Translations under genes and position numbers: made by a program
Notes under the pieces: model-generated
Database searches by the model: none
The model's input: only the letters and a program-made list of their open reading frames with translations
What the model was told of the DNA's origin: nothing
From: Oscillospiraceae bacterium
GTDB taxonomy: Bacteria > Bacillota > Clostridia > UBA1212
NCBI GenBank assembly: GCA_015069195.1
Contig: SVJA01000008.1
Location: 1-64,000, forward strand
Reading direction: 5' to 3'
Length of the DNA: 64,000 nucleotides
Part shown: positions 2,784 through 28,271 of the stretch, one piece after another
Numbering within the stretch: position 1 is the first letter of the stretch
Layout: every line of letters starts with the position of its first letter

Positions 2784-3863
2784 ATGAATACACAAAAACT
2801 TAATTCAGCAATAGCTGAATTTACAAAGAAAAAGAAATCTAATGCTGCATATTACGAAGAAAACTGGGCTGAGCGTAAGGAGCGTAAGGACTATTATCAG
2901 TCGTTTACCAAGGACAAGCTTATCGCTATGACTGAGGATGAGTTCTTAGAGTACATCAGTAAGCTGTGGTCTATGCTCATTTGGGGTAACAAAAAATATG
3001 TTGTCGACAAACTCATTGACGATAACGGTTTTGCCACACTTAAAAAGCAGTTGGCTGAATTACTCTATGGTACAAGCTCTATCGAAAAGCGTTGGGACGT
3101 GTTCTTGAAGTCAATTAAGGGTATGGGTCCCGCAACTATCAGTGAATTGCTTACATACGCTAATCCGCAGGAATATGTAATCTTTAATAAGACAACTATT
3201 CTTTGCTATGGCTATCTTGATATTCCCGATATGCCGAAATATAACTATCAGTACACCGGAAAGAAATATGCTGAAGTTTGCGCTATTGCAAAAGAGATTG
3301 CCTCAGAGCTCAAAAAGGCTGGCGCAGACGATTATGATCTTTTGGCTGTGGATTACTTTATGTGGGATGAGATTCTTCCCCTTGCTGAAAAGAAAACTTC
3401 AGATACTCCTGCTACCCCTGAAGTTAAAAAGCCTGTTGATGTAACGGATTCAAAGTCTCTCCACGATGAGATTAAAGAAAAAATAGTAGTAATAGGAAAG
3501 TTACTCGGTTTTGACAGTCGTGCAGAAGTGAAAATCTCTTGCGACTCTATTGTTGATGCAATTTGGGAATCCAAAATAGGAAACATGGGAAAAGTTATCT
3601 ATGTTTTTGAGGTTCAGTCTAAAGGTTCTATCTCAAATATGCTAATCAATTTAAAGAAGGCTCAATCTAATGCGGCGGTACAAGCTGTTGTTGCTGTGTC
3701 TGATGAAGAACAATTATCCAAAATAATCAAAAAAAGCAAGGATGTCATCGATGAAAGCTCTTTGCGAACTTGGTCAATTGATGAAGTTCTTACTGTTCAC
3801 GATTCATTGGTAAGAGCTCACGAATCAATCAACAAACTGGCTTTAGTGCCGGAAAGTTTTTAA
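2784..3863 (+). CDS. unassigned protein with helix-hairpin-helix-like segment and nuclease-like C-terminus
   Basis: I do not recognise a named family. The 359-residue protein has three parts. Residues about 40-200 form a compact, conserved-looking domain containing a helix-hairpin-helix-like turn (IKGMGPATISELL, 111-123). A low-complexity linker follows at about 204-222. The C-terminal domain shows D254, D258 and an EVQSKGS strand (276-282) spaced like the acidic and ExQ/ExK residues of restriction-type nucleases. It sits between hsdS and hamA on the same strand, with a good AAGGAG ribosome binding site and 11 bp after hsdS. This suggests a role in the same defence locus, perhaps as the missing cleavage subunit or an accessory nuclease. 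The nuclease reading is inference. Confidence 0.6.
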   Translation: MNTQKLNSAIAEFTKKKKSNAAYYEENWAERKERKDYYQSFTKDKLIAMTEDEFLEYISKLWSMLIWGNKKYVVDKLIDDNGFATLKKQLAELLYGTSSIEKRWDVFLKSIKGMGPATISELLTYANPQEYVIFNKTTILCYGYLDIPDMPKYNYQYTGKKYAEVCAIAKEIASELKKAGADDYDLLAVDYFMWDEILPLAEKKTSDTPATPEVKKPVDVTDSKSLHDEIKEKIVVIGKLLGFDSRAEVKISCDSIVDAIWESKIGNMGKVIYVFEVQSKGSISNMLINLKKAQSNAAVQAVVAVSDEEQLSKIIKKSKDVIDESSLRTWSIDEVLTVHDSLVRAHESINKLALVPESF

Positions 3864-4797: not shown

Positions 4798-7016
4798 AAA
4801 ACTATTACTTAGCAGAAGAACAAAATGATCTTTCTGATATGATTAGAAGTGTTTGTTCTTATTTCGATTTTATGAAAAATCAAGAGCTCTCATCAGGGGA
4901 CATAGATTTTCTGCAGGATCTTTCTAATAGTATAGGTGTTCCGCAGTATGTAAAGTTACTGGAAAGAGACTTTTCTGCTAATTACCCCGATCAAAGAGAA
5001 ATATCGCTTTCGACATTAGCATCCTATTATAACGAAGCAAATCTTACACGGGCTGGACAAATTCTGCATCGATATCAGAAAAATGTGTTAGATATGTTTG
5101 TTTCAGGCCAAAATAATCGTTTTATTTTGTCTGCTCCGACTTCATTCGGAAAAACATTTATTGTGTACGAAATCATCAAAAAAATACGATACAAAAATGT
5201 CGTTTTAATTTTTCCTACAATATCTCTCTTATCAGAAAATTTTGAGAAACTACTTTCCGGCCTTTCTAACACCTTTAATGACTATAAAGTACATACTTTA
5301 AGCGAAGATGATGAAGTAGCCGAGAAAAACATATGGATATTTACTCCTGAACGCTTCTTATCTTTCACTGATAAACATGAATCCCAACAATTTGATTTTG
5401 TGTTTATCGATGAAATATACAAGATAGACAATGAATTTATAATTGATAAAGAAACTACTGGAGAAAATGAGCGAGACGTTGCTTATCGGGTAGCGTTGTC
5501 TTATGCATGTAAAAAATCTAACGATTTGCTTCTGGCGGGTCCATATATGAATATGGCAAATAAAACCTCCTTTGCCAATTTTGTTAAAGATAATAATTTT
5601 ACTGTAATTAATTACAACAATATTGAAATTGTAAATAAAACAATAACCGATATAAAAGGAAAAAAAGAATATAATATTGATGGCATACAAATTGAGTTAG
5701 ATGAAAATTCAAAATATTCCAAAGTGTGTGATATTGCCGTAAGACTCACTAATTCAAAAGAGAACACAATAATATATAACAATTACAAGTCAGGCACAGA
5801 ACGATACGCAAAAGAGATTATTTCTAGACTTGATCAAAAGGAAATACATTTTGAATCAGATGATCCTATTTATAGAATGTTTGTGGAACATCTTGAAAAC
5901 ACATATAGTGCAGAGTGGATTATCGTTAAGGCATTAAAGTATGGAATTGGTATCCACCACGGTCTTGTTCCCAAATACATACAGAAGGAAATTATCAATT
6001 TGTTTAATAGAGGGATTCTTCTTTATCTTATATCTACTACTACTATTACCGAGGGGGTTAATACTTCGGCAAAAAATATTATTATAACATCGAATAAAAA
6101 AGGTAGAAAAAATCTTAAGCCTTTTGATGCCAAAAATATTGCTGGAAGAGCTGGAAGATTCCTGCAACACTTTTCCGGTCGGGTAATTATCATTGACAAC
6201 AATTTTGAGGAAGTTTTGACTTCAAACGAAGATGAATTACAACATAAAAACTATGATGTCGACAGTAAAAAGACAGACGTTGATTATACGATCACATCAG
6301 ATAAGTATTTATCAAAAGACGATAGCGAGAAAAAAGATAAAATATTTGAAGAAGTCCGCAAAAGGGATATTCCAAGAGAAATTATTGAACAGTATAAAAC
6401 GGTCAGCATCTCTGATAAAATAATAATTTATGACAGAATGCAAATTCTAACACCAATGCAGTTAACAGAAATAAAGGCATTAATATCAAGACTCAACTAC
6501 AATATGCAGATTTCGTGGAATGGTTTCCAAGAAATAATTAATATTTTGAAGCCAATTATTCGAGATGCTAAATTGTTTGAGTTGGCAAATGCAACATGCA
6601 GAGACAGCGATTTTTCTCTTATAACTGCGAAGGTACACTTTTATTTGAAAGGCGGTTTCTTTGGACTGCTACAATATAACACCAAAGGAACTCGTTATGA
6701 TGATGCAATGCGAAATACCGCAGATATGGTTTACAATGTTTTTAAATATCAATTGGTAAAATATCTTGGTGTTTTCAATTTGATTTATCAGCATGTAATG
6801 GCGCATAAAGAAGGGGTGAGCATCGATGAAGTTTCTGGCATCACCACCCTACTACAAAAGTTAGAATATAATGCTTTTAGATCAAAAGCATTGATTTTAA
6901 GTGATTATGGAGTTCCATTCAAACTAGTCGACTATTATGATGATCCTAATGGCAGGAAGCATTTTGATTTTTACGAACAATACATCGACAATAAAGTTTC
7001 TCATATAATCCAATAA
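4764..7016 (+). CDS. hamB: HamB-like superfamily 2 helicase of a Hachiman defence system
   Basis: This is a Ski2-like DNA helicase, the sensor partner of HamA. Motifs in order are a RYQ segment near 103, Walker A APTSFGKT (124-131), TPERF (194-198), the Walker B variant DEIY (216-219), GIHHG (396-400), motif V STTTITEGVN (424-433) and motif VI NIAGRAGRF (458-466). The remaining C-terminal 280 residues are helical and family-specific. At 750 residues it is somewhat short for the family but contains every helicase motif. Its start lies inside the end of hamA with an AAGGAG in the hamA reading frame. The context supports a Hachiman role over a generic helicase. Confidence 0.78.
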   Translation: MDKQQRAIDIIKNYYLAEEQNDLSDMIRSVCSYFDFMKNQELSSGDIDFLQDLSNSIGVPQYVKLLERDFSANYPDQREISLSTLASYYNEANLTRAGQILHRYQKNVLDMFVSGQNNRFILSAPTSFGKTFIVYEIIKKIRYKNVVLIFPTISLLSENFEKLLSGLSNTFNDYKVHTLSEDDEVAEKNIWIFTPERFLSFTDKHESQQFDFVFIDEIYKIDNEFIIDKETTGENERDVAYRVALSYACKKSNDLLLAGPYMNMANKTSFANFVKDNNFTVINYNNIEIVNKTITDIKGKKEYNIDGIQIELDENSKYSKVCDIAVRLTNSKENTIIYNNYKSGTERYAKEIISRLDQKEIHFESDDPIYRMFVEHLENTYSAEWIIVKALKYGIGIHHGLVPKYIQKEIINLFNRGILLYLISTTTITEGVNTSAKNIIITSNKKGRKNLKPFDAKNIAGRAGRFLQHFSGRVIIIDNNFEEVLTSNEDELQHKNYDVDSKKTDVDYTITSDKYLSKDDSEKKDKIFEEVRKRDIPREIIEQYKTVSISDKIIIYDRMQILTPMQLTEIKALISRLNYNMQISWNGFQEIINILKPIIRDAKLFELANATCRDSDFSLITAKVHFYLKGGFFGLLQYNTKGTRYDDAMRNTADMVYNVFKYQLVKYLGVFNLIYQHVMAHKEGVSIDEVSGITTLLQKLEYNAFRSKALILSDYGVPFKLVDYYDDPNGRKHFDFYEQYIDNKVSHIIQ

Positions 7017-7106: not shown

Positions 7107-8033
7107 ATGAATTTTATCGAAAACAAATTACCGTCGTCAACAGAAGAAGTGAAGTGGCATTGGACACAATGCATACAAGAAAAACTTGATTTCACAGAAG
7201 TTAGTGTTCACGGAAAAAAGCAGAACTTCACGCTTCCCGCTGATTATTTTGATATGAAAGATTCAGATGCAGACAAAATTGCATTTATCGGAAGGCAATA
7301 TGTTTTTTTCTCTCAACCCGTTGCGATGGAGGATTTTGAACTTAACATATTTGGTGAAATAAATCCGGATACTCAAATAGGCGGATTATTAAGCAGTATA
7401 AAACATCTTCGTCCAACTGCTGACGTTTATGGTTTATTTGCAAGATACAAGTACATAGAAAAATCTGTATATTGTGCAATTACCGTATGCTATGTCGATA
7501 AAGAATTTGGATCAGAAATGGAAACAGCGGTATTCGAAATTAGCGAAGATGAACATGCATATGTACTTCCGGTAGGAATTAATGAGGAAGCTTTAGATTA
7601 CTATACGCTTGACGACCTCGCAAAACTAGCATACTGGTTAGGTAATTTTTGGTTAGGAGTACAATATGAAATTAAAAATTGTCCAGAAGAAATCCGTGTC
7701 ATTGAAAAGCGTGGTCCTATCACGCCTGCTCTGGAAGAAGAAATTCATCAGAAAAAAAGGCCCATTTTAATTAAACGAATCATCCCAATAGATGCAGATG
7801 GAAATGAAGTCAAATATGAGTCAACTGGATCAGGAAGGAAGTATACACTTCCAGTGTGGGGAGTAAGAGGACATCCACGAACATTGCCAAATGGAAGAAT
7901 TACTTTTGTGCGTCCTTATCCAAAAGGTAAAAACAGAAAAAATCCAGATGCATTGATAAGCAAAGAATATAAATTTGTTGAGGATAAAATCGATTTAGAT
8001 ACAGAAACGACTGAGAGTAAAAGTGGACTATAA
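7107..8033 (+). CDS. hypothetical protein, last plus-strand gene of the defence cassette
   Basis: No family is recognised for this 308-residue protein. It has no membrane segment or signal peptide. The C-terminal part has a basic motif with the pattern RGHPRTLPNGRITFVRPYPKG, which resembles short RGHxRxxxxGxxxxVxPY tails seen in various phage and mobile-element proteins. That tail may bind nucleic acid. The gene has a TAGGAG ribosome binding site, lies 90 bp after hamB on the same strand, and ends just before a strong bidirectional hairpin. Position suggests it travels with the Hachiman pair, but nothing in the sequence assigns it a function. Confidence 0.6.
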   Translation: MNFIENKLPSSTEEVKWHWTQCIQEKLDFTEVSVHGKKQNFTLPADYFDMKDSDADKIAFIGRQYVFFSQPVAMEDFELNIFGEINPDTQIGGLLSSIKHLRPTADVYGLFARYKYIEKSVYCAITVCYVDKEFGSEMETAVFEISEDEHAYVLPVGINEEALDYYTLDDLAKLAYWLGNFWLGVQYEIKNCPEEIRVIEKRGPITPALEEEIHQKKRPILIKRIIPIDADGNEVKYESTGSGRKYTLPVWGVRGHPRTLPNGRITFVRPYPKGKNRKNPDALISKEYKFVEDKIDLDTETTESKSGL

Positions 8034-9888: not shown

Positions 9889-9943
9889 GACTCGAAATCA
9901 GTTTGCCGGCAACGGCACGAGGGTTCGAATCCCTCCGTCTCCG
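9889..9943 (+). other. attachment-site scar: 3' half of tRNA-Ser(CGA)
   Basis: The segment reads as a serine tRNA from the anticodon loop (CTCGAAA, anticodon CGA) through a long variable arm, the GGTTCGAAT T-loop and the 3' acceptor strand CGTCTCC plus discriminator G; CCA is not encoded. The matching 5' half (GGAGACG) is absent upstream, and the anticodon stem cannot close with the sequence present. It is therefore a partial copy, as left by site-specific integration at the 3' end of a tRNA gene. A perfect terminator hairpin follows and probably served the original tRNA gene. Confidence 0.75.
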
Positions 9944-9944
9944 C

Positions 9945-10520: not shown

Positions 10521-10982
10521 CTATACAGCTCGGCTCTTAAACAAATCTACCAGCTTTATAACCGCCTCACGCGGAATAAAATTCGTTTCATTATCCGAAG
10601 CATAAATTTGTTCTCCCGATGCGAACTTTATATCAACTAAAGCACCGTAGTTATCGGGAAGGCCTGCCACAAAACAATACTCACCGTTATATCTTGCAAA
10701 GTCATATTCATTAATAATGTTGTACAACCTTTGCATAAATTCGACCGATTCGCTGAAACTCTGCGCAAGCGCATCGCCGTAGCGGTCTCGGCATTTATAT
10801 TCGCCTTTTACGGCACCGTTTTCAAGAACTGCGTCAAGGTTATAGACATACCCGCAATATTCGTCCTCCTCCGCATCTGCGACGGTAGACATTTCAACGC
10901 AAAAATTGATAATATCCGTTGATTCTATATGTTTCGGCGCATTTTTAGCCGCTTTTTTCGTAACACCGCCATCGATTTCCAT
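10521..10982 (-). CDS. hypothetical protein, 153 residues
   Basis: A soluble, acidic protein of unknown function. It appears to share an overall layout with the 146-residue protein downstream: a mid-region helix, a GEYCFVAGLPDNYG turn, a strand ending in G-QIYASDNETNFIP, and a C-terminal helix. AAGG precedes the ATG and a sigma-A-like promoter lies about 30 bp upstream. The two genes are separated by 90 bp and may form one transcription unit. Confidence 0.6.
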   Translation of the reverse strand: MEIDGGVTKKAAKNAPKHIESTDIINFCVEMSTVADAEEDEYCGYVYNLDAVLENGAVKGEYKCRDRYGDALAQSFSESVEFMQRLYNIINEYDFARYNGEYCFVAGLPDNYGALVDIKFASGEQIYASDNETNFIPREAVIKLVDLFKSRAV

Positions 10983-14840: not shown

Positions 14841-15380
14841 TCAATCCTGTGCTGTATGCACACCCTCAACATTTACGCTTACTTCTTTTACCTTTATCTC
14901 CATAGAAGCCTCGACGGACTCTTTTACTCTCTCCTGTATGCTCTTACAAAGCGCGGGAACATTTATATCCGGAACAACGGTGAGCTTTATGGCAATCTCT
15001 ACTTTCTGGTCGCGGAAAGATACCTTTGCCTTAGACTCTTTTACGCCCTGGAATCTCTTGGACAATGCAAGTGCAATGTTTTCGATGGAGTTGGAAGAAA
15101 TTCTCACAATACCGTTCTCGTTCTCTGCACAGATATATCGGGTGCTTCTTCTGAGTCTGAGACCTGATGTAAGAACTACGATATTAAGTACAAAGAATAC
15201 AAATCCTATCAGGAAAATAGCTATATCGTACTGCTTTGACTGATAACATGTTATGTTAAGATAATCGAGTACCATAGACATAAGTTCTTTGTTTCCGAAC
15301 GGTGAAATCATGATAAATCCGAAAACAACCGTCAAAATAAGTGAATATACGGCAACAAGTATTCTAAAAAACAAATTCAT
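14841..15380 (-). CDS. amaP: AmaP, membrane anchor of Asp23
   Basis: AmaP tethers Asp23 to the cytoplasmic membrane. The 179-residue protein has two membrane segments (about 5-27 and 55-77) and then a cytosolic Asp23-like domain with the pattern RISSNSIENIALALSKR near residue 95. GAGGAG precedes the ATG. It sits between asp23 and the DUF2273 gene, the canonical order. Confidence 0.88.
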   Translation of the reverse strand: MNLFFRILVAVYSLILTVVFGFIMISPFGNKELMSMVLDYLNITCYQSKQYDIAIFLIGFVFFVLNIVVLTSGLRLRRSTRYICAENENGIVRISSNSIENIALALSKRFQGVKESKAKVSFRDQKVEIAIKLTVVPDINVPALCKSIQERVKESVEASMEIKVKEVSVNVEGVHTAQD

Positions 15381-15421
15381 CTCTTTTTCTCCTCAATCAA
15401 TAGTAATCAGTTATGAGTCTC

Positions 15422-15946
15422 TCAATCGTCAATGTCGTCAAAGAACTGGAATACCGACATGTCACGTGTCTTGTTCTTTTTCGGGGCAGGATTTTCTATA
15501 GCTTTCTCTGTCGTGACCGCGCGTTTCGTCTCGTCGCCGAACTCTATACCCTGTATGTGAATATTTACCGCAGAAACTACAACACCGGTCAGCTTCTCAA
15601 CGCTGTCCTTTACGTGCTCCTGTATTTCCCAGGCAATGTCTGAAATCCTGCTTCCGTAATTTACGATCACATACAAATCGATAACGGCCTCGTCCTCTAT
15701 CATTTCGACCTTTACTCCCTTGGCGGGATTGTGTCTTCCGAGGGCTTCCGCTATACCGCCGGCAATACCTACGCTCATACGCGCAACTGACTCCACTTCG
15801 GTAGCCGCAACGCCTGCAACTATCGCAATGGACTCATCGGTAATACGCAGATTTTCGTCATCCGACGCATCTCCTGCGGCTCCGTGCTCTCCGATATAAA
15901 GTTCTTCGATGTTCTCAGCATCAAACTCATTGTCTGTACCGGGCAT
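15422..15946 (-). CDS. asp23: Asp23/Gls24 family envelope stress protein
   Basis: Asp23 proteins form a layer under the membrane and respond to cell-envelope stress. The 174-residue protein has the family core: DESIAIVAGVAATEVESVA, a KGVKVEM strand and IAWEIQEHVKDSVEKLTG. The N-terminal 25 residues are acidic and the last 30 residues carry a lysine-rich stretch. The ribosome binding site lies inside the arm of an inverted repeat that also overlaps the promoter (see 15953-16012), so expression is probably set there. Confidence 0.9.
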   Translation of the reverse strand: MPGTDNEFDAENIEELYIGEHGAAGDASDDENLRITDESIAIVAGVAATEVESVARMSVGIAGGIAEALGRHNPAKGVKVEMIEDEAVIDLYVIVNYGSRISDIAWEIQEHVKDSVEKLTGVVVSAVNIHIQGIEFGDETKRAVTTEKAIENPAPKKNKTRDMSVFQFFDDIDD

Positions 15947-15952
15947 AAAAAC

Positions 15953-16012
15953 CTCCCTGTTTAACTGTCAATTAAACAGGGAGATTATAACATTTCACGC
16001 CGATTCGGTCAA
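15953..16012 (-). promoter_or_regulatory. asp23 promoter with overlapping inverted repeat
   Basis: On the minus strand TTGACC (16007-16012) and TATAAT (15984-15989) are 17 bp apart. A perfect 12-bp inverted repeat (15953-15964 and 15972-15983) starts at the -10 box and ends in the asp23 ribosome binding site. In RNA coming from the spoIIIA operon the repeat can fold, bury that site and be followed by GUUUUU. RNA started at the local promoter (start near 15977) would lack half of the upstream arm. Confidence 0.65.
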
Positions 16013-16013
16013 C

Positions 16014-16580
16014 TTAATACACACTGCTTACCGTAAGATACTCCGGAGATATTTCAGTTTGCGAATATACAACCGTCGCAATTGTCTCAACTTCGCTCTG
16101 TGTGATGTTCTCGGCAACCAGCACAACATCGATAAAACCGTCATCTCCGAACCCTACATATACATCATCGTAGCCTCTGTTTTTAAGTGCACTCTCCAGT
16201 GCATCCTCACACTCCGTAATCGAATTTACCGTGAGAATTTCATCCTGTGCGCTGAGGATTTCGCTCTCCGTAGAAGATGTATCGTCTATTATAGCAAGAC
16301 ATTCCTCGGTATAGGCACTTCTGTCTGCCTCACGCTCTATGCGCAAACCTGCTATGTAGTCAAGGGCATTATCACACTTTACTCCTGTGGGAACTCCGTC
16401 TCCGAGGATACTGTCCGCTTCTTCGCTGTTATAATCCTGTACAAACACAACATCCTCTGACTCATCACCGCTGTCTGCACCGCTTTCGACGCCGTCATGC
16501 CTTACATTCTGATATATAGCAGCCGCAAGCAATACACAGCACACACACAATGCCAATATTCTTTTAACCTTTAAACTCAT
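16014..16580 (-). CDS. spoIIIAH: stage III sporulation protein AH
   Basis: SpoIIIAH is the mother-cell half of the zipper across the two membranes around the forespore; it binds SpoIIQ and forms part of the feeding channel. One N-terminal membrane segment is followed by an acidic linker and a ring-building domain like those of type III secretion (YscJ/FliF). The C-terminal half shows the SITECEDALESALKNRGY helix and two strands. The ATG at 16580 was preferred to the TTG two codons earlier because AAAGGA is 10 nt upstream. It is last in a complete spoIIIA operon. Confidence 0.88.
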   Translation of the reverse strand: MSLKVKRILALCVCCVLLAAAIYQNVRHDGVESGADSGDESEDVVFVQDYNSEEADSILGDGVPTGVKCDNALDYIAGLRIEREADRSAYTEECLAIIDDTSSTESEILSAQDEILTVNSITECEDALESALKNRGYDDVYVGFGDDGFIDVVLVAENITQSEVETIATVVYSQTEISPEYLTVSSVY

Positions 16581-16650
16581 ACTCAAACAATCCTTTCTGA
16601 CTAAACATATTTTATGTATATGACAAGTTCAAAAATAAATGCGCGGTTTG

Positions 16651-17250
16651 TCAATTTTTACCCGCTTTCTTTACGACAGAGATTTTATGAACAGGAATGC
16701 CGTACAAACTCGAAACCGCCTCTATGACCGTCTCTTTCACGGTATTTTTGTCTGCACCTTCCGCAGAAATCAGAATCCCTTTTATTTCAGGATATTCGTC
16801 ATAAATATGTACAAGGCGCTCGTTTCCGTCCGAATCTTTCACCACTTTATACACAGAACTCTCCTCAAGCCTTGAATTCACCCTTTTTCCGCCGTTTGAG
16901 TCACCCTCGTCGGTGTTTTCCTCAGTTGTCTGTATTTCGCTTGCATTGACCGTTTTTAAGCTTGTTTCGACATATATGATGACATCTGCATCCCCTACAC
17001 CCTTTATATTTTTTAAAACACTTTTAAGCCGTTTAGCTTCCGCATCAGCATAAGACAATTCACCGGCTGAATCATTTTTAAGCGACACATTGCTCTGATT
17101 TGCGTCATTTTTTGTCGAATCAGTATTATCACTTTTATCAAACAGCGGCGGAACAAACAACAAAATTAAAACACCCGCAATAATCGCAACAGATTCGAAT
17201 TTAAAATTTTTAAGTACTTTGAAATCAAATTTTTTAAACGACAACTTCAC
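16651..17250 (-). CDS. spoIIIAG: stage III sporulation protein AG
   Basis: SpoIIIAG forms a large ring in the intermembrane space between mother cell and forespore. A membrane segment (about residues 20-38) follows a basic N-terminus. After a serine/asparagine-rich linker comes the ring domain with LKSVLKNIKGVGDADVIIYV and the C-terminal IKGILISAEGADK strand-helix. A GTG start at 17250 is preferred because AAAGGGGG lies 7 nt upstream, leaving no overlap with spoIIIAF. Confidence 0.88.
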   Translation of the reverse strand: MKLSFKKFDFKVLKNFKFESVAIIAGVLILLFVPPLFDKSDNTDSTKNDANQSNVSLKNDSAGELSYADAEAKRLKSVLKNIKGVGDADVIIYVETSLKTVNASEIQTTEENTDEGDSNGGKRVNSRLEESSVYKVVKDSDGNERLVHIYDEYPEIKGILISAEGADKNTVKETVIEAVSSLYGIPVHKISVVKKAGKN

Positions 17251-17252
17251 AT

Positions 17253-17840
17253 TCACACCCCCTTTGAATCTATTTCGCAAATTTCCGCAGAAACGCCCAG
17301 CGTATCGCTTAAAGTTTTCCTGATGCCGTCATAGTCAAATTCCGGCTCTTTACTGTTCCCCCCAAAGGAAATCTCTATATCCTCTATCAGCGGAACGTTC
17401 GTGATAATTCCTTTATCTCCTGACGTCTCAGGTTTCTCGTCCGACACAACACATTTCACGCCCAACACAGAGCCGAACAGCGACGATTTTATATCCTTGC
17501 ATACAGTAACCGACACATCACAGATAACACCGTTTTCTTCAAGCAGCTTTTTCTCCGCAAGAGTTTCAACGGATGAAGAATATTCAGAAATAACGTTTTT
17601 TATGTAATTGTCATCTGCACTGTCAGAGACCGTCCCGATTTTACTTTTGAAAAGCATATCAATGTTCTGAGGATCAAAGCCGTCCGAAAACATATTCAAA
17701 ACCGGAACTGCAGTTACAAGCAGAAAAATTATTCCGAATGCAGTATGCACCGTCTTTTTCACGGAATTTTCGGGAATGATTTTTAAAATCAACGACATCA
17801 CGACGGAAGAAACAATTATTCCGATAATCCACCTTGCCAT
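17253..17840 (-). CDS. spoIIIAF: stage III sporulation protein AF
   Basis: SpoIIIAF is a membrane component of the SpoIIIA-SpoIIQ channel, with a domain related to the ring-forming proteins. Two membrane segments occupy about residues 3-55, and a periplasm-like soluble domain follows, ending in IRKTLSDTLGVSAEICEID. The ATG at 17840 fits a GAGGTG site better than a GTG two codons earlier. It is 12 bp after spoIIIAE. Confidence 0.87.
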   Translation of the reverse strand: MARWIIGIIVSSVVMSLILKIIPENSVKKTVHTAFGIIFLLVTAVPVLNMFSDGFDPQNIDMLFKSKIGTVSDSADDNYIKNVISEYSSSVETLAEKKLLEENGVICDVSVTVCKDIKSSLFGSVLGVKCVVSDEKPETSGDKGIITNVPLIEDIEISFGGNSKEPEFDYDGIRKTLSDTLGVSAEICEIDSKGV

Positions 17841-17852
17841 AAGCACTTCACC

Positions 17853-18881
17853 TCACGAAAAACGAACGGATGTAAACATTGCAATGTTCAATATAAAAAA
17901 CACACCGATAAGTCCGACCATACCCATAAGCATCGTAAAAGCTTCTGATATATTACCGATTACCGATTTTATTCTGCCGTTACCGAAAGGCGTTGCTATA
18001 AAAGCCGCAATCCGTAAAAGTACCGTATATGCAAACAATTTCAGAAACGGAGAGATTCCTGTTATAAATACTGCAGCAGAAGCACCTATCCCCGCAGCAC
18101 TTTTAACGGCACACAGCCCGGAAAAGACAAGATCCGCCGACTCCGACAAATACGAACCTACAAACGGAATCAGATTTCCTGCATATTTAACGGTTTTACC
18201 CGCCACTCCGGAAAACTGCCCCGACACCGCACCGGTCACCGCAGTTACACAGAAAAACACCGTCATCGTGAGACCCAACCCCCACACAAAAAGGCTCTTT
18301 ACGCCTCCTCTGAGTTCCGAAACAGGAAACTTGTCCGTCAGGCAATCGCACAGTCCCAAAGCACCGTATAAGACCGCCAAAGGTACAAAAAACCAGCAAA
18401 CCACAGCCGACACATACTGTGCTACGGCAACAAATACCGTACTCCCCGTTTTAAGCCCGAGTGCTGCAATAAGCGGTATCACCGCAACGGAAACCGACTC
18501 CATACCGGTAGCGGCTTCAACAGCAAACTGCACTCCTCCTATAAAAAGACCGCTCAAAAGAATTGAAACGATTATCGCAGAAGTATTCTCGTTAAGCTCA
18601 TAAAAAGGGCTGTTACTCCCTGCAAAATTCGCCGCAACTGCAGACAGTATGCATATCCCCAGAATTATCGCCGTAAGACCTATATTTTCCGTAAGGTTGT
18701 CCAGCAACTCTTTGATTATCGCGGCAATCACGCTCCCCGGCGACAAATTCATTTCACCGTTAAGAGCATCCGCCATCAGTCCTCCCGGATCTACTGCACC
18801 GCCGTAACTTCCGTAAGCCGAAAGCATATCCGAAATCGCACCCAACTCTTTTTGACTGTTTTCCGTCGCATAAAGTGTCAT
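17853..18881 (-). CDS. spoIIIAE: stage III sporulation protein AE
   Basis: SpoIIIAE is the largest membrane protein of the mother-cell channel apparatus. The 342-residue protein has about eight hydrophobic segments from residue 65 onward. It is shorter than the about 400 residues usual in Bacillus because it lacks the N-terminal signal-like region; AGGTGAG directly before the ATG supports this start. The C-terminal PFLKLFAYTVLLRIAAF segment is typical of the family. Confidence 0.88.
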   Translation of the reverse strand: MTLYATENSQKELGAISDMLSAYGSYGGAVDPGGLMADALNGEMNLSPGSVIAAIIKELLDNLTENIGLTAIILGICILSAVAANFAGSNSPFYELNENTSAIIVSILLSGLFIGGVQFAVEAATGMESVSVAVIPLIAALGLKTGSTVFVAVAQYVSAVVCWFFVPLAVLYGALGLCDCLTDKFPVSELRGGVKSLFVWGLGLTMTVFFCVTAVTGAVSGQFSGVAGKTVKYAGNLIPFVGSYLSESADLVFSGLCAVKSAAGIGASAAVFITGISPFLKLFAYTVLLRIAAFIATPFGNGRIKSVIGNISEAFTMLMGMVGLIGVFFILNIAMFTSVRFS

Positions 18882-18908
18882 AATCTCACCTGCCTGCCCT
18901 TTGGTAAA

Positions 18909-19310
18909 TTAAAAAACATTTGTATTTATTATTTCTATAACTGTTTCGGTCAATGTTAAGGCGAGCGGCATTACGGCGGAAACGACGCAGATGCGGCCGG
19001 TCGTTTCCACCGTGGTCGCGACGGCGGCGCAGCCGCCGTCGCGACAAGTTTCGGCAGCAAAGCTGCACACGAAACTTATGCCGCTCACCTTTAATATTGT
19101 TGAAACATAAATATTGCCGTCAGAATAATTTGCCAGAAGCGATTTCATACCGGCAAACAAATCGTTCACGGAAGAAATCACCGACAGAAAAATGATGCTG
19201 ACACCTGCCAAAGAAATTAAAACAGCAAATTCAGGTTTGATCTGCCGCATAACAACTGCCAGAACAGCCAGAATAATGCCGAAAATACCGATTTTGATAA
19301 TATCGTACAT
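18909..19310 (-). CDS. spoIIIAD: stage III sporulation protein AD
   Basis: SpoIIIAD is a small multi-pass membrane protein of the SpoIIIA channel. Its 133 residues and four hydrophobic segments match the family, and the segment VSTILKVSGISFVCSFAAE corresponds to the conserved ILKIxGIAY region. From codon 74 onward the base composition becomes much richer in G and C than the neighbouring genes, and 134 nt fold into four nested inverted repeats (18958-19091). The protein alignment shows no insertion, so the DNA structure is written into an otherwise normal gene. Confidence 0.88.
   Translation of the reverse strand: MYDIIKIGIFGIILAVLAVVMRQIKPEFAVLISLAGVSIIFLSVISSVNDLFAGMKSLLANYSDGNIYVSTILKVSGISFVCSFAAETCRDGGCAAVATTVETTGRICVVSAVMPLALTLTETVIEIINTNVF
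18958..19091. repeat. cloverleaf of four inverted repeats inside spoIIIAD
   Basis: An outer stem (18958-18971 with 19078-19091, 13 of 14 paired) encloses three hairpins. They are 18973-18986 with 19000-19013 (13 of 14), 19015-19028 with 19032-19045 (14 of 14, 3-nt loop), and 19046-19053 with 19070-19077 (8 of 8) extended by GCAGC/GCTGC. Only one or two bases remain unpaired between stems. All of it is coding sequence for spoIIIAD. Confidence 0.85.
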
Positions 19311-19320
19311 AAATCCACTC

Positions 19321-19515
19321 CTAAAAGCCGAAAACCGCCCTTAAGGCATCCATAAGTGCGCCTATTTCCTGTACAACTACTATAAGGACTATCACAAGGC
19401 CTGCAATCGTAACCATCAATGCCTGCTCGTCCCTGCCCGATTTAGACAGCAAAATATTTATAACCGCAACAATTACCCCGACTGCTGCTATTTTAAAAAT
19501 CAGATCGATATCCAT
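19321..19515 (-). CDS. spoIIIAC: stage III sporulation protein AC
   Basis: A 64-residue protein with two hydrophobic segments, the normal size for SpoIIIAC. It contains the family stretch LSKSGRDEQALMVTIAGL between the segments. It acts in the mother-cell membrane with SpoIIIAD. It lies 10 bp before spoIIIAD and 12 bp after spoIIIAB. Confidence 0.9.
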   Translation of the reverse strand: MDIDLIFKIAAVGVIVAVINILLSKSGRDEQALMVTIAGLVIVLIVVVQEIGALMDALRAVFGF

Positions 19516-19527
19516 TACACCGCCCCC

Positions 19528-20058
19528 TTACCACAACAACAAAATCAATACGGCAGAAGCCGCCGCACCGAGCTTTATAAAAAGGTTGCCGTCTTTCTTT
19601 AATTTCACATCGGCTTCCGTTATCAATAAATCGAGTTTTTCCGCCACCGTTTTCAGATGCTCCGAATGATGCTTTACATCGGCTCGTCCGAGTGTAGAAG
19701 ACAGCGAACATAAAAGATTTATTTCACCATCCGAAAGCAAACCTTTTTCCGAAACCGATTCTACCGTATCTCGCCAGGCTTCCTCACCCGACAAAATCCC
19801 TTGCGAAAGCTTATCACCAAAGATTGAAAACAAATTATATTCCGGATATTCTTTACAAAATCTTTGTCGGCATTCATTCATACATTCCTCTAAAGCAAGC
19901 TCGTCCAAAGAAATTCTACTTTCCGTAAATTCAATCCCGGCTCTGTATTCCGCAAGAATATCACGCCGCATTTGCAATCGCTTTTTCAGCTTATATCCTG
20001 TCATTATTCCGGAAGACGCAATCAAGACAGCCCCCGCAGATTTCAAAACAAACAACAT
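19528..20058 (-). CDS. spoIIIAB: stage III sporulation protein AB
   Basis: SpoIIIAB is an inner-membrane protein resembling type II secretion GspF components, and a partner of the SpoIIIAA ATPase. From the ATG at 20058 it is 176 residues, with an N-terminal segment containing SGIMTGYKLKKRLQMRR, the family hallmark, then helices and a C-terminal membrane segment. A longer frame begins inside spoIIIAA; the AAAGGAGAG before 20058 supports the shorter start. Function follows from the family and operon. Confidence 0.88.
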   Translation of the reverse strand: MLFVLKSAGAVLIASSGIMTGYKLKKRLQMRRDILAEYRAGIEFTESRISLDELALEECMNECRQRFCKEYPEYNLFSIFGDKLSQGILSGEEAWRDTVESVSEKGLLSDGEINLLCSLSSTLGRADVKHHSEHLKTVAEKLDLLITEADVKLKKDGNLFIKLGAAASAVLILLLW

Positions 20059-20078
20059 CTTTTGTAAATACTCTCCTT

Positions 20079-21014
20079 TCAGACAATCTGCCTTACACTG
20101 CCCGGACCGTCCGAACAATCAAGCACAATAAATCGTTCAAAAAAGTTATCATCAATCATATTTCCGATTTCTTTCCTCGCCCTTACCTCTTCCAGACTGC
20201 TTCCGTGCGTCGTTGAAATTACTTTAATTCCGGAATTTATTGCCGAAGCAACAGCCGCATAATCCCCCGGTCCGCCTATTTCATCAGTCACAATAACAGA
20301 CGGCGCCATCGACCTTATCATCATATAAATGCCCTTTTCCTTTACACAGCCGTCCAGAACATCAGTTCTTACACCCACATCATTTGAAGGTACACCGTTT
20401 TCACACGAACAAATCTCCGACCTCTCGTCAATAATTCCTACATTCGCCCCTCTGAACCTGACCGGTGACTGTCCTCCGTTTGATAAATACCTTGCAATAT
20501 CTCTGACAAGCGTTGTCTTACCGCAACATGGCGGCGAAATGATAAGCGTACTCCTTATTTCTCTTTCGCTTTTTACGATGAACGGCAACACTTTTTTCGA
20601 ACAACCTATAATCTCCTTCGAAACCCTGATATTCAACGCCGTTATATCGCGTATCATCCCGTCACTTTGTACTCTGCCGCATATTCCTACCCTGTGACCG
20701 CCCGAGAGCGTCACAAAACCATTTCTTATATCTTCCGTGTATGCGTAAATCGAATTTCTGCAAATTCTCAAAAACAAATCGCGCATCTCATTCGCCGTCA
20801 TCCGAAGTGCCCTGTCCGTATGTTTCAGACTCAAACCGTTTGCAGTCAAAAAATACGACTCATCGTCAATAACAACGGAAAGCGGTTTTTCCGTCCTCAG
20901 ACGTATTTCTTTCACCTTGCCGACGGTTTCCGCATTCACCGCTTCCGAAAGCAGCTTGCCGGCAGTTCCGCCAATCTTATCGGTTATCTCATTCTTAAAT
21001 TTTAAACAGTTCAT
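20079..21014 (-). CDS. spoIIIAA: stage III sporulation protein AA, ATPase
   Basis: SpoIIIAA is the motor ATPase of the mother-cell channel, related to type II/IV secretion ATPases. The Walker A motif is SPPCCGKTTLVRDIARYLS, and the Walker B region is VIVTDEIGGPGDYAAV. The 311-residue length from ATG 21014 is normal; GGAGGAGCGGG lies just ahead of it, so the longer frame to 21092 is not used. It is the first gene of the spoIIIA operon. A sigma-E promoter would be expected in 21015-21130, but I could not identify one with confidence. Confidence 0.93.
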   Translation of the reverse strand: MNCLKFKNEITDKIGGTAGKLLSEAVNAETVGKVKEIRLRTEKPLSVVIDDESYFLTANGLSLKHTDRALRMTANEMRDLFLRICRNSIYAYTEDIRNGFVTLSGGHRVGICGRVQSDGMIRDITALNIRVSKEIIGCSKKVLPFIVKSEREIRSTLIISPPCCGKTTLVRDIARYLSNGGQSPVRFRGANVGIIDERSEICSCENGVPSNDVGVRTDVLDGCVKEKGIYMMIRSMAPSVIVTDEIGGPGDYAAVASAINSGIKVISTTHGSSLEEVRARKEIGNMIDDNFFERFIVLDCSDGPGSVRQIV

Positions 21015-21132
21015 AAATCCCGCTCCTCCGCCTGCAACTTGTACACAACAATCTATGCACCAAAAGCACCGTTTAGAACTGTTTGTCCGCAAAATTTATC
21101 TGTATACAATTTAATTAAATAAAAATCAAAAA

Positions 21133-22585: not shown

Positions 22586-22658
22586 ATTATATGATACAAT
22601 GATTTAAAAAGCAACCGTTTTTGGTTGCTTTTTAAATTAGCAACCATTTTCAGTTGCT
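22586..22658 (-). promoter_or_regulatory. satD promoter with two palindromic operator-like sites
   Basis: The minus strand has TATAAT (22586-22591) 17 bp from TTGCTT (22609-22614). The -35 box lies inside a palindrome with arms AAAAAGCAACC and GGTTGCTTTTT (22606-22633). A second, AGCAAC-N8-GTTGCT, is centred 29 bp further upstream (22639-22658). The repeated AGCAAC half-site suggests binding of a dimeric regulator, perhaps SatD itself. Confidence 0.65.
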
Positions 22659-22684
22659 TTTCTCGTATATACTTTTGCCAAAAA

Positions 22685-22721
22685 GCGCCCGGGCAGCGAT
22701 TTAAAATCGCTGCCCGGGCGC
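22685..22721 (-). terminator. strong terminator of the surface repeat protein gene
   Basis: A perfect 17-bp stem (22685-22701, 22705-22721) with a 3-nt loop; TTTTTGG follows on the minus strand. Confidence 0.88.
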
Positions 22722-22739
22722 AGGTCTTATAATCTGTTA

Positions 22740-25700
22740 TCAGAACAAGTCAAAAATATCGGAATTGTCGATATTATTATCCGGCTCTGCATAAAGTGTA
22801 AACCTATCTCCGGAAAGTATTCCGCTTTCTGTAGACGAAACATACGTTGCTGTTGAGAACACATACGTATCACTGTATGTAACAGCATATTTTGTCTCAC
22901 CATCTTCTTCATAAGAATATGTACAATACATTCTTACATAGATTGTCTTATTACCTCTTACATTGATCGAAGCCGCGTACTGACCTGACGGAGTTGCATT
23001 ATCTCCGTAAACATTACTGATTTTTTGCAGATTTGCAGAATTAGATTCAAGTGTAAGAACATTCACAGTCGATGTTTTACCTGTATCGGGATCCGTTACT
23101 ACAGTAGCAGGTTTGTCAGTAGTACTGTCAACACCGTAGAACAATGTACCCCACTCAACAATCTTGTAATCAGCGTTCGGAGTAAACATACCGTAAACTG
23201 TATACCTATAATATGAAGAGGTCTTATTATTAACCAACTGAAGAACAGGAGTTATCGAAACATTCGGCTTAGCTTCAACAGAAGTACCGTATATAGGCTG
23301 AAGCTTCATCGTATTCAAAGCCTTGAAACTGAATGTTTCCTCGTAACTGATATACGGATAATATACACCGCTTATCAAGCAAGCTTCCGAACTCTTGCGA
23401 GTTGTTCCGGCATTTTTGTCAATCCAACCTACGAATGTACCTGAACCTGTAGCAGTCGCTGTAACCGTTGTGTTGTAATCAACTGAAATAGATGTCTTCG
23501 CACCATTTACAGTTCCATTTTCTACTACTGTGATTACCACTTTATTCTCTGTAGCAATCTTTGTGTAAGAAGCATCGATATTTACTACACCGCCGTTACC
23601 GTTTACGTAGATGTACATCGGAGTTACACAATTTTTCTCTTTGTAAAGTATGCTGTAGTCATACTTGTAACCGGTCTGGGTTGTGCCTTCGACAAGGTAA
23701 TACGTTGTATTATTGTATTTGGTTTCTTTATAACCTGCCTTATCCGCATGTTTCAGGAATTCCCAACCTGTGAACGCACTTCCGGCTTTAAACGGAGTGG
23801 CTGTTATAGCATCTACAGAGATATAAGAACCCTTTGCAGCCACTATTGTCTGAACAACCTGACCTGCAACATTCATAAAGTTAAACTGTGTACTTGTATC
23901 CGATGTTGCAGTAAATACTGCTACAATCTGCATATCCGTATGCAAACCATCATCAGAAAGCGTATATGATTTCGCTGTTGAAATAAGTCTGTCATAATCA
24001 TACGCAGCAGCTGCAGGAGACTTATGATACCATCCGAGGAAGCTGAGCGTATTACCGGATACACCCAATGTAACCTTACCACCGTATGTACCTACAGAGG
24101 TAACAGATATCGTACCCTGAGAAAATGGTTTCGATACAGCAGAAGAACCGCCGTTGTTTACAAGACTTTCTGCTGAAATTGCGCCACCGATTGTCTGGGT
24201 AAACACCTCAACTTTAAACACACTGATAAATTTAGCAGTAACTACTGAATCAGCGGTAACAGTGAAAGTATTACCGGTGATAGCATTACCGTTCACATAA
24301 ATCTTGTTCAATGTATAGCCGGGGTTCGCTTCGGGAGTAACCTCAAGCGTCCATACTGAATGATCCACATAATCACCCGAATTAATAACTTTATTGCCGT
24401 CTCTATTGTTTACGTTGATGGTAATCGTACCATTAGGCATATCTTTTATTGTTACCTTATACATTGCTCTGCACAAAGCTCTATATTCAGTATCAGCATT
24501 AACAGTATGTTCCTTAGATAAAATACCACGTGTTTCAGCACTATTATAAATAAGGTTCTCATTGTTTGCATAAAGTATACGTAATCTGTATTTTTGGGTT
24601 CCGGTAGGCGGAGTATACGTAACCGTAAGTTTCGTACCTGCATCTACGTAATCGCCATCTGAAACCTTAGCCTGGGTTTCACTGTTTTTGATGGTAATTT
24701 CACCCATAGACACACCGTTGTAGGTCTCATTCTTCTCCGCAGTCAACGAGCCGATTGTTACCTTATATATCGCTCCTACTGTTCCCGAGAAAGTAACATC
24801 GCTTGTAACCTTATGGTCTGCCGACACTACAGCATTTGATATCGTCGAGTTATCCTTGATAGATGAACCACCTGCTGTAATTGTCTTTACTCTGTATCCG
24901 TCAGCAGGATCAAGTTTAACTGTAAGTTCCGTGCCTGTATCTACATAACTATCGCTGGCTACAGTTGTCGTTGTGCCTTTTTTCACAACCGTAATTGTTC
25001 CATTGGTAATGTTACTGTAGGTAACCTTATATATCGCTCCTACTGTTCCAGAATATGTTACAGTTCCTGTAACCTTATGAGTTTGTGACACTACAGCATT
25101 CGATATCGTCGAGTTTTCTTTAATAGAGGTACCGCCTGCTGTAATGGTCTTTACTCTGTATCCGTCACCGGGATCAAGTTTAACTGTAAGTACCGTATCC
25201 ACATCCACATAACTATCTGCAGCGACAGCATTGCCGTTCGGATCCGCAAGTGTAATTACACCATTATCAGGATTAGATATCTTTACCTGATAGATCCTTC
25301 CTACCGTACCGGATATAACATCATCGTTTGCAATAGCATATGTATACGTTACCGCTGTCGTTGACATCGTTGTAAAGTCCTTCTTCTTAGTTCCATCTAA
25401 TGTAACTGTCTTCACTCTGTATCCTGAACCAGGGGTAAGTGTTACTGTAAGTTCCGTACCTGTATCTACATAACTATCGCTGGCTACGGTTGTCGTTGTG
25501 CCTTTTTTCACAACCGTAATTGTACAATTGCTAAAGTCGCTGTAAGTTACTTTGTATATCCTTCCTACCGTACCGGATATAACATCATCGTTTGCAATAG
25601 CATATGTATACGTTACCGCCGTCGTTGACATTGTTGTAAAGTCCTGCTTCTTAGTTCCATCTAATGTAACAGTCTTCACTCTGTATCCTGAACCAGGGGT

Positions 25701-28151
25701 AAGTGTTACTGTAAGTTCCGTACCTGTATCTACGTAACTCTCGCTGGCTACAGTCGTCGTTGTACCTTTTTTCACAACCTTAATTGTACAATTGCTAAAG
25801 TCGCTGTAAGTTACTTTGTATATCCTTCCTACCGTACCGGATACCGTAAATGCCGCCGTACCTACAGTATACGTGTAAGTTACAGCTGTTGTTGACATTG
25901 TTGAATATGTCTGCTTAGTAGTACCTCCGATTGTAGCAGTCTTTACCCGGTATCCGCTTTTCGGGGTAAGTGTAATCGTAAGCTTAGTACCATAAGGAAC
26001 TTTGTCACCACTACTATAGTTCACATTATCATTACCCTTAGCAGTAATTGAGGTCATATTATCAGGTACTGTTATTGTCATAGTATACGAGTTCTTAGTA
26101 AATGTAGCCTTAACAGTAGTAGCACCGCTAACTTTAAACGTACCGCCGCTACTCAAAGTCGTGCCACCGGCTGTAATAGATTTTAACGTATAACCCGGAT
26201 TCGCCGTAGCAGTTACCGTAAGCGTTGTATTATAGTCGATTTTATCACCACTGGAAATAGCCGTATTACCGTTTTTAACCGTAACAGTACCTCCGGCAGA
26301 CGGATCAGGCGTAATCGTAATCGCATACTTATTTGCGGTAAACGAAGCAGATATCTGAGTATTGGCACTGATTGTTTTTGTACTGCCGCTTGAAAAACTA
26401 CTGCCGGCTACTGTAAGAGAACTGAAAGTATATCCGGTACTTGCAGTAGCAGTTACTTTAATAACCGTACCTGTATCTACGTAGTTGCCTGAGCTGATAG
26501 TAGCACCGCTTGAGTTATTTGTAACTGCGATTGTACCACCGGTAGGCTGACTGAATGTAACCGTATACATTCTTACATATGTAACTGTAATTGTAGTATT
26601 AGCAGTAATAGTATATGTTTTAGATATGGTTTTATCGTGTGTCATATCTGTGTTGGTCCAAGTACTGCTGCCAACTTTAATCGATTTTACTCTGTAACCT
26701 GAGTTAGGATTAGCACTAACGGTAATTGCTTTATTATACTGAGAGAAAAAACTACCGGAGGTATAAGAAGTACCGGCGTAATTTGTAAACGTGGCAGTAC
26801 CACCGCTACCGTTATCTATCGTTATCTTTGGATCTATTCTGAAATTGTCCGAAGTAGTATTACCTAGAGAAATATCTTTTGACGTACCGTTGTTATAAAC
26901 AGTGGCATACAGAGAGTTATTAAAATTCGCACTCGATGTTGAGCCTTTTCCATCATAAGCAATCCATGCAGTATAGTTACCGGGAGCCAGATGAGTAGTT
27001 CCGCTTGAGCTCTGGTTTTGTGATGGGAAAGTAACCGAACCGTCGGAAGTTGATACAATTTTAAATTGCTTTGCCGACTCTTCTCCCGGTTTTTTTCCGC
27101 TGGCATAGACGGCAACAAACGGGGTTTGTTTCTGATCTGTGTTCAGATAACTGCCGAGACCCGTATAACTAATCGAAATAGAATTTCCGTAATTATACGC
27201 CGCACTAGCCGAAACGCCAGGAGTGGAGATCGAACTGAATAGCTGTACGGAACGCACATAACATTTTTTATTGGCGGGCACAGCGCTTGATGGCGCGTTA
27301 AAGTAATCTAAACGTAACGCCTTAATCGTTCCCTGCCAGGCACCGCTTGTAAAAGCTGACATATCAAACACATAATCATGCCACAACCCGTCATTTATTA
27401 GAGTGAAACCGAATCCAAAACCTGTAGCTGCCGCATAACCACTAGGAGCGATTTGTGACGTAATCGGATATAACATTCCGTTTGTATACGATTCTGACGT
27501 TTTCATGGTAATAACGATATATCTATAATTCATTGCATAGAGAGTAGTTTTACTATCATATTTTATATATACATATGGGTCTTTATTAATACTGGTATCG
27601 CTTGAATAAACCGTCGTAAGTTGCATACAAGCATCATTAAGTCCGGCGTAATCAGGCAAATTAACTCTTCCAGTAGTTGTAATTCTATGCATCGAGTTAG
27701 CAGCCGTCACCAATGAATAATCAGTATCATTATCAAAAACAATACTGTCATATGAATTTTTGAAAACCACTTTAATTGTAGTATTCTGATGCGGCATTGT
27801 AACTAGCCAATGTTGGTAAGCACCGGTAACTGCAACACCGGTATATGTTCCGAGATCTGTGCCATTAATCGTAACCGATGCAACCACATATCCGGTGTCC
27901 GGTCGTACCTCAAAGTCAAACTTCGTCCCACCTGTAACAGTCGCCGATTGTATCCATGCACCACCGCTCTGACCGAAGTCAGAAACTCCGCCTGCATTAT
28001 TCGTCGTCGTAACGGTATAGTTTGCAGCCTCTGCCGTAATAGATATCAAAAAGATCACAAAGAATAAAACAAGAGCAAGCAATAAAGATAAAAGAACTAT
28101 ATGTTTTCTTTGCATTCCTTTAGTTTTCATAAACATTCCTTTCATTTTCAT
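22740..28151 (-). CDS. very large secreted repeat protein with InlB B-repeat/bacterial-repeat domains
   Basis: A secreted or surface protein of about 1,800 residues. A basic N-terminus and hydrophobic segment (VLLSLLLALVLFFVIFLI) ending near AEAA form a signal peptide. Then come a carbohydrate-binding-like beta domain (to about residue 320) and more than ten units of 60-90 residues of the type YTVTF...GGTI...G..V..GT..TVTATA..GYTFKSI, typical of divergent InlB B-repeats. The end (from about 1600) is a different beta domain finishing NIDNSDIFDLF. No LPXTG sorting signal, SLH domain or dockerin is evident, so it may be released or held by unknown contacts. Three 21-bp repeats at the start offer alternative start codons; 28151 is taken because AAAGGG precedes it. 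Confidence 0.8.
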   Translation of the reverse strand: MKMKGMFMKTKGMQRKHIVLLSLLLALVLFFVIFLISITAEAANYTVTTTNNAGGVSDFGQSGGAWIQSATVTGGTKFDFEVRPDTGYVVASVTINGTDLGTYTGVAVTGAYQHWLVTMPHQNTTIKVVFKNSYDSIVFDNDTDYSLVTAANSMHRITTTGRVNLPDYAGLNDACMQLTTVYSSDTSINKDPYVYIKYDSKTTLYAMNYRYIVITMKTSESYTNGMLYPITSQIAPSGYAAATGFGFGFTLINDGLWHDYVFDMSAFTSGAWQGTIKALRLDYFNAPSSAVPANKKCYVRSVQLFSSISTPGVSASAAYNYGNSISISYTGLGSYLNTDQKQTPFVAVYASGKKPGEESAKQFKIVSTSDGSVTFPSQNQSSSGTTHLAPGNYTAWIAYDGKGSTSSANFNNSLYATVYNNGTSKDISLGNTTSDNFRIDPKITIDNGSGGTATFTNYAGTSYTSGSFFSQYNKAITVSANPNSGYRVKSIKVGSSTWTNTDMTHDKTISKTYTITANTTITVTYVRMYTVTFSQPTGGTIAVTNNSSGATISSGNYVDTGTVIKVTATASTGYTFSSLTVAGSSFSSGSTKTISANTQISASFTANKYAITITPDPSAGGTVTVKNGNTAISSGDKIDYNTTLTVTATANPGYTLKSITAGGTTLSSGGTFKVSGATTVKATFTKNSYTMTITVPDNMTSITAKGNDNVNYSSGDKVPYGTKLTITLTPKSGYRVKTATIGGTTKQTYSTMSTTAVTYTYTVGTAAFTVSGTVGRIYKVTYSDFSNCTIKVVKKGTTTTVASESYVDTGTELTVTLTPGSGYRVKTVTLDGTKKQDFTTMSTTAVTYTYAIANDDVISGTVGRIYKVTYSDFSNCTITVVKKGTTTTVASDSYVDTGTELTVTLTPGSGYRVKTVTLDGTKKKDFTTMSTTAVTYTYAIANDDVISGTVGRIYQVKISNPDNGVITLADPNGNAVAADSYVDVDTVLTVKLDPGDGYRVKTITAGGTSIKENSTISNAVVSQTHKVTGTVTYSGTVGAIYKVTYSNITNGTITVVKKGTTTTVASDSYVDTGTELTVKLDPADGYRVKTITAGGSSIKDNSTISNAVVSADHKVTSDVTFSGTVGAIYKVTIGSLTAEKNETYNGVSMGEITIKNSETQAKVSDGDYVDAGTKLTVTYTPPTGTQKYRLRILYANNENLIYNSAETRGILSKEHTVNADTEYRALCRAMYKVTIKDMPNGTITINVNNRDGNKVINSGDYVDHSVWTLEVTPEANPGYTLNKIYVNGNAITGNTFTVTADSVVTAKFISVFKVEVFTQTIGGAISAESLVNNGGSSAVSKPFSQGTISVTSVGTYGGKVTLGVSGNTLSFLGWYHKSPAAAAYDYDRLISTAKSYTLSDDGLHTDMQIVAVFTATSDTSTQFNFMNVAGQVVQTIVAAKGSYISVDAITATPFKAGSAFTGWEFLKHADKAGYKETKYNNTTYYLVEGTTQTGYKYDYSILYKEKNCVTPMYIYVNGNGGVVNIDASYTKIATENKVVITVVENGTVNGAKTSISVDYNTTVTATATGSGTFVGWIDKNAGTTRKSSEACLISGVYYPYISYEETFSFKALNTMKLQPIYGTSVEAKPNVSITPVLQLVNNKTSSYYRYTVYGMFTPNADYKIVEWGTLFYGVDSTTDKPATVVTDPDTGKTSTVNVLTLESNSANLQKISNVYGDNATPSGQYAASINVRGNKTIYVRMYCTYSYEEDGETKYAVTYSDTYVFSTATYVSSTESGILSGDRFTLYAEPDNNIDNSDIFDLF
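25296..25823 (-). repeat. two nearly identical 264-bp tandem units in the repeat protein gene
   Basis: CCTTCCTACCGTACCGGATA recurs at 25296, 25560 and 25824, an exact period of 264 bp or 88 codons. The units differ at only a few positions, so they duplicated recently and can be expected to vary in number between strains. Confidence 0.85.
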
Positions 28152-28271
28152 AAGCATCCCTTTCATTCAAGTCAAATCAAATAAAATTATATTAATTAAT
28201 AAACTAAACTGATAAATAGAATACAGAATACAAATCATAATACCCTAATATTCTAATATTCTACATATGGG

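Follow-up and report, generated by a model that had tools for sequence, protein, structure and literature searches.

Within the spoIIIAD coding sequence of an Oscillospiraceae bacterium (assembly GCA_015069195.1) lies a 134-nt cloverleaf of inverted repeats, a coding palindrome with a four-way junction, and the account we favor, with about even confidence, is that it arose in place by substitution and owes both its origin and its upkeep to processes acting on DNA. The element occupies positions 18958-19091 of the window (the whole stretch of DNA analyzed, 64,000 nucleotides), its sense strand being the minus strand, and its architecture is that of a closing stem and three hairpins set back to back. 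The closing stem P1 joins sense positions 1-14 (5' arm, 19078-19091) to 121-134 (3' arm, 18958-18971) through 14 pairs including one G.U, and encloses hairpins H1 (sense 15-46, at 19046-19077; 8+5 bp), H2 (sense 47-77, at 19015-19045; 14 of 14 bp perfect, with a 3-nt loop) and H3 (sense 79-119, at 18973-19013; 14+3 bp), all on the minus strand; the arms of H2 are perfect, and P1 and H3 contain wobbles. The preliminary description is confirmed in its central observation, as all four of its stems are present and the GC-richness that it had remarked on against an AT-rich chromosome is borne out (about 0.63 in the region versus 0.39 for the genome). Its two C-A mismatches exist as positions, but the coding strand has G.U wobbles there (sense 5-130 and 83-115), so that the transcript pairs better than was first thought.

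The minus strand reaches an MFE of -97.1 kcal/mol (z -11.8 against dinucleotide shuffles) and the plus strand one of -89.3 kcal/mol (z -10.6). Synonymous recodings of the same protein average -43.7 and place the cloverleaf at z -10.3, with 0 of 3000 as low; permuting the codons of the region itself, again 3000 times, leaves it at z -6.6 with none as low. The element had also been called exceptional for this stretch, and it is indeed the sole structure of such strength lying wholly inside a coding sequence in the window, the other strong folds being intergenic terminators or weaker. Two adjoining hairpins at 2026-2159, in the ORF at 1648-2772 (plus strand), are weaker than spoIIIAD (z about -5.9); a strong intergenic hairpin pair with a 29-nt tandem repeat is found at 22591-22814, and intergenic stems of 20-30 bp, unusually long and close to perfect, are numerous in this genome. 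The window further contains a T-box leader (46735-46988, minus strand; RF00230, 113 bits), a gene for a secreted-looking 1808-aa repeat protein, whose tandem copies of a 264-nt unit match at 96% (22740-28166, minus strand), and, at 9889-9944 on the plus strand, 56 nt identical to the 3' end of a tRNA-Ser gene present in full elsewhere in the genome (G000:C21, L064 2107-2195). This fragment resembles the duplicated attachment site that would mark one end of an integrated element; no complete tRNA is found in the window.

The host gene and the fold in a congener

The spoIIIA operon of the window is intact on the minus strand and, together with two downstream genes, spans 14841-21092 with the same gene order in the sole congener compared (G001; the source genome of the window is G000). 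It comprises spoIIIAA (20079-21092), spoIIIAB (19528-20118), spoIIIAC (19321-19515), spoIIIAD (18909-19310), spoIIIAE (17853-18881), spoIIIAF (17253-17846), spoIIIAG (16651-17280) and spoIIIAH (16014-16586), the last of these and the two downstream genes being assigned from position and orthology with G001 rather than by family search. SpoIIIAD itself is intact at 133 aa and colinear with its family: TIGR02849 aligns to it without a gap (28-128 to 1-101), although with a score below the model's cut-off (62.9 versus 85.6 bits). The gap-free alignment means that nothing was inserted and that the palindrome is overprinted on an intact coding sequence, in line with the earlier judgment that this is no simple insertion. 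In its structured segment the protein resembles the family less than any other sequence compared does, yet the region keeps most of its 14 near-invariant residues (10 in G000, 12 in G001), both arms of the palindrome encoding conserved residues.

The SpoIIIAD proteins of the two species are 57% identical and their synonymous sites are heavily diverged, identical residues sharing the same codon in about 46% of cases across the operon. In the same region G001 nevertheless shows the same topology, a closing stem and three hairpins with zero unpaired bases at the junction. Some pairs are broken there, 47 of 58 still being pairable, and four double compensatory changes are spread over all three hairpins: one in H1 (G-C to A-U at 22-39, with the apical helix shifted in register), two in H2 (48-76 and 55-69) and one in H3 (84-114), where a wobble has in addition become U-A at 83-115; P1 is reduced to the 7 contiguous bp adjoining the junction. 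The G001 fold (-69.2 on the sense strand, -62.7 antisense) lies 7.9 sd below synonymous recodings of G001 itself, and redrawing only those G001 codons that differ from G000 gives a mean MFE of -51 against the -69 observed (P 0.0007). Since the fold exceeds this shared-codon null despite synonymous divergence, the structure has been kept.

The strong evidence here comes from the energies, and the covariation counts are weak alone because only two sequences are available (39 of 500 shuffles are as high, and P is 0.07-0.14 in another test). A conserved fold with compensatory changes, the pattern expected of a cis-regulatory RNA, is present as judged from two sequences only. Of the two signs of constraint that the preliminary description had proposed looking for in relatives, compensatory change was found to this extent, and suppressed synonymous variation was not, the same-codon rate of the structured region (19/33) being unexceptional beside the rest of spoIIIAD (20/41). 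Beyond the genus, spoIIIAD of a member of the same family (G002) and of members of the order and class is without such a fold (z -1.9 to +0.9). The element is therefore confined to two species in this comparison and its changes cannot be polarized.

Similar elements in other genes

A search for further copies, also suggested at the outset, found no second copy of the cloverleaf by sequence, and the confident hits of a covariance model were limited to the spoIIIAD sites of the two congeners, none elsewhere being convincing. What the genome does contain is other GC-rich branched coding folds. When about 1.2 Mb of G000 was scanned for structure, such palindromes came to light in folC, the feoB linker, yfhO and adhE, in an O-methyltransferase gene and an orphan gene, and in the genes of an ABC permease, an FAD-dependent protein and a ThiF-like protein (the last named by reading its sequence), the lists varying with the thresholds chosen. 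The elements that can be checked are structured in G001 as well (spoIIIAD, feoB, adhE and the orphan gene); the G001 assembly, which is incomplete, yielded neither the folC nor the O-methyltransferase gene, and the folC, adhE and O-methyltransferase elements are mostly absent outside the genus. There are, in short, several coding palindromes per genome, at positions partly shared between related species.

The feoB linker (G000:C16:94464-94565, L075 14464-14565; conserved in G001 at L137 ~3601-3700) forms a four-way junction without an unpaired base, whose core is conserved and to which each species has added different extra hairpins on either side, the resulting length differences being in frame. 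The orphan gene, which has no Pfam match, carries tandem hairpins (G000:C5:14056-14320, L042; G001:C11:17070-17300, L204). One hairpin of its G001 copy has a 19-bp coding stem free of mismatches, and a comF-like gene of the same genome, named from sequence (G001:C1:9195-9334, L195), contains consecutive coding palindromes with stems of up to 16 bp. Such elements are also carried by G002 and a further genome, G009, with spoIIIAE, named by its position beside spoIIIAD, among the genes concerned: elsewhere in this operon, GC-rich branched folds are seen at 10705-10914 in spoIIIAE of G002 (L170, C13) and at 6611-6757 and 7542-7751 in spoIIIAD/spoIIIAE of G009 (L177, C4).

Across 315 orthologous gene pairs of G000 and G001 (6320 windows), local structure is correlated (r 0.23) and extreme windows coincide, the mean z of G001 being -3.4 where that of G000 is below -4; the two strongest coinciding windows are those of spoIIIAD and the orphan gene, the latter with 33% amino acid identity there. 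Perfect coding stems of at least 12 bp number 23 in G000 against 1.0 in codon-shuffled sequence and 11 in G001 against 0.3, an excess of more than 20-fold over all coding sequences, where genes outside the window are uncurated ORFs and some may be spurious; among genes with confirmed orthologues the counts are 6 against 0.8 and 7 against 0.3 (about 8- to 20-fold). In 177 kb of Escherichia coli no perfect coding stem of at least 11 bp was found, the control-genome samples being drawn partly around the same genes. The comparison relies on draft assemblies, and many of the tests were designed post hoc, after inspection of the data.

Transcript, junction and insertion readings

A selected mRNA structure in the spoIIIA transcript is a possible but doubtful alternative; it could tune ribosome pausing during membrane insertion of SpoIIIAD, translation of spoIIIAE, whose start lies 77 nt downstream of the cloverleaf, or segmental mRNA stability. 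The better folding of the sense strand in both species is consistent with it, as are the correlated structure of orthologous coding windows and the G001 element, which keeps its position and junction with compensatory changes and beyond the shared-codon null. Were the transcript selected, however, G.U would be expected to be tolerated and A.C not, and the near-perfect coding hairpins have 15 G.T and 20 A.C on the sense strand, against 45 G.U and 13 A.C in these genomes' intergenic T-run terminators, whose action is at the RNA level (Fisher P 0.0015). In the elements proper the counts are 19 G.U to 17 A.C. This lack of a G.U preference on the transcript strand holds at the level of the class and is not decisive for the spoIIIAD element, whose own sense-strand mismatches (2 G.U, 1 A.C) decide nothing alone. 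The mismatch symmetry favors DNA-level origin and upkeep over a selected mRNA element, and the occurrence of similar elements in functionally unrelated genes, the missing fold in spoIIIAD of G002 and order members, and the lack of any Rfam match above the gathering score also speak against a transcript function. The proposal that the cloverleaf is an mRNA element controlling the spoIIIA membrane genes is accordingly unsupported; of the broader suggestion, that codons were shaped to preserve a DNA junction or an RNA fold or else that the gene was rewritten by a process forming palindromes, maintenance is upheld, and a DNA process that forms or perfects palindromes fits more of the evidence.

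The same symmetry is a DNA-like signal that would also suit a selected DNA junction, in which a structure-specific protein (a junction binder, resolvase, primase or nucleoid protein) would recognize the single strand or cruciform and the four-way geometry would act as a signal independent of sequence; we regard this as unlikely. A tight four-way junction is seen in 11 of 17 coding elements, compared with 1.7 expected under codon permutation, and three-way junctions number 1 against 3.9 expected, the P value of this test being overstated by non-independent orthologue pairs and the choice of 140-nt windows favoring elements of this size. An unbiased scan of coding sequences gives 9 four-way to 5 three-way junctions over G000, G001 and G002, whereas E. 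coli shows 2 four-way and 19 three-way (P 0.002), and zero bases are unpaired at the junctions of spoIIIAD in G001 and of feoB in both species. Independent hairpins should produce more three-way closures than are seen, so the excess of four-way over three-way junctions surpasses the independent-hairpin prediction and is only partly accounted for. A DNA junction with every base paired stacks better with four arms than with three, and this physical property could explain the excess; alternatively, the geometry could be the selected signal. Against selection stand the small number of elements, genes without a common theme, turnover beyond the genus and the absence of an identified candidate binding protein. 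The more general proposition, a dispersed class of sequence-unrelated four-way DNA elements in ordinary genes, selected and recognized by geometry through a junction-specific protein, appears to us more improbable again.

Rickettsia palindromic elements are inserted stretches of related sequence, carried in frame within bacterial genes, whose arms become less alike with time. In favor of a mobile element of this kind are the palindromic form of the cloverleaf, its GC-richness in an AT-rich genome and its place inside a gene, together with the lineage-specific hairpin insertions of the feoB linker. Unlike those elements, the spoIIIAD cloverleaf is not inserted relative to its orthologues or to TIGR02849 and has no second sequence copy in the genome, and we reject an RPE- or MITE-type origin for it as very improbable. 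Chance codon usage or an assembly artefact, to which only the reliance on draft assemblies lends anything, is scarcely credible given the synonymous recodings, the same junction in an independent genome, and the intact reading frame with most near-invariant residues.

Coding palindromes and DNA copying

The reading we prefer, a coding palindrome made and kept at the DNA level, would operate during replication, when the single strand may fold into hairpins; by quasipalindrome correction, a template switch of the polymerase inside a hairpin, one arm would be copied onto the other, which would keep the arms complementary and make them change together. GC-rich arms may be favored because they fold best or through GC-biased conversion. 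Three hairpins would bring their flanks together, the flanks could then pair as a closing stem, and a stacked four-way junction would result, the degeneracy of the code and conservative replacements presumably letting SpoIIIAD tolerate the palindrome. That templates are switched, that GC bias plays a part, that events came in this order and that the element has no dedicated function are our inferences from the patterns described here. The occurrence of elements in unrelated genes, growing by lineage-specific hairpins beside a conserved core, argues for a DNA-copying process; the four-way excess among coding elements argues against it, as does the fact that no mutation event was observed. Loss of SbcCD as the cause of palindrome tolerance was rejected, sbcD being present in both G000 and G001. 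Nor is an overlapping gene conserved in both species apparent: the sense +2 frame is open over the region in G000 and has a stop there in G001, and antisense frames were inspected by eye.

The closest known case is that of the coding palindromes in Nematomorpha mitochondrial genes, for which template switching has been proposed (Mikhailov et al. 2019, PMC6649704, where Rickettsia palindromic elements are also discussed). In both, long inverted repeats are overprinted on conserved coding sequence with both arms encoding conserved residues, and several occur per genome, some in the same place in related species, with dynamic gain and loss. The present elements differ in lying on a bacterial chromosome, in their stems of 7-20 bp compared with up to 284 bp, in their partly imperfect arms and branched four-way junctions, in being GC-rich in an AT-rich genome, and in the double compensatory changes between species. 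Template switching also creates and maintains RNA hairpins, producing compensatory changes of several bases (Monttinen and Loytynoja 2022, PMC8794818), and perfect stems with such changes would arise here from a similar DNA-copying process; those cases are RNA genes, whereas here the sequence is protein-coding and an RNA role is a candidate only. In yeast coding genes, where template switching acts as well (Abraham and Hazkani-Covo 2021, PMC8604942), inverted-repeat arms are similarly homogenized within coding sequence with amino acid replacements, but those repeats are short, the events single, and no nested junctions are kept across species. We found no description in the literature of such a palindrome in spoIIIAD.

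A palindrome and a protein compete for the same bases, and long nested palindromes in conserved genes should therefore be rare. The usual covariation criterion would call these elements selected RNAs, whereas their mismatch symmetry points to a DNA-copying process. A small class of elements with co-changing arms in a bacterial genus would be a natural system for testing how far compensatory change proves RNA function, and may represent a bacterial counterpart to the unexplained coding palindromes of hairworm mitochondria.
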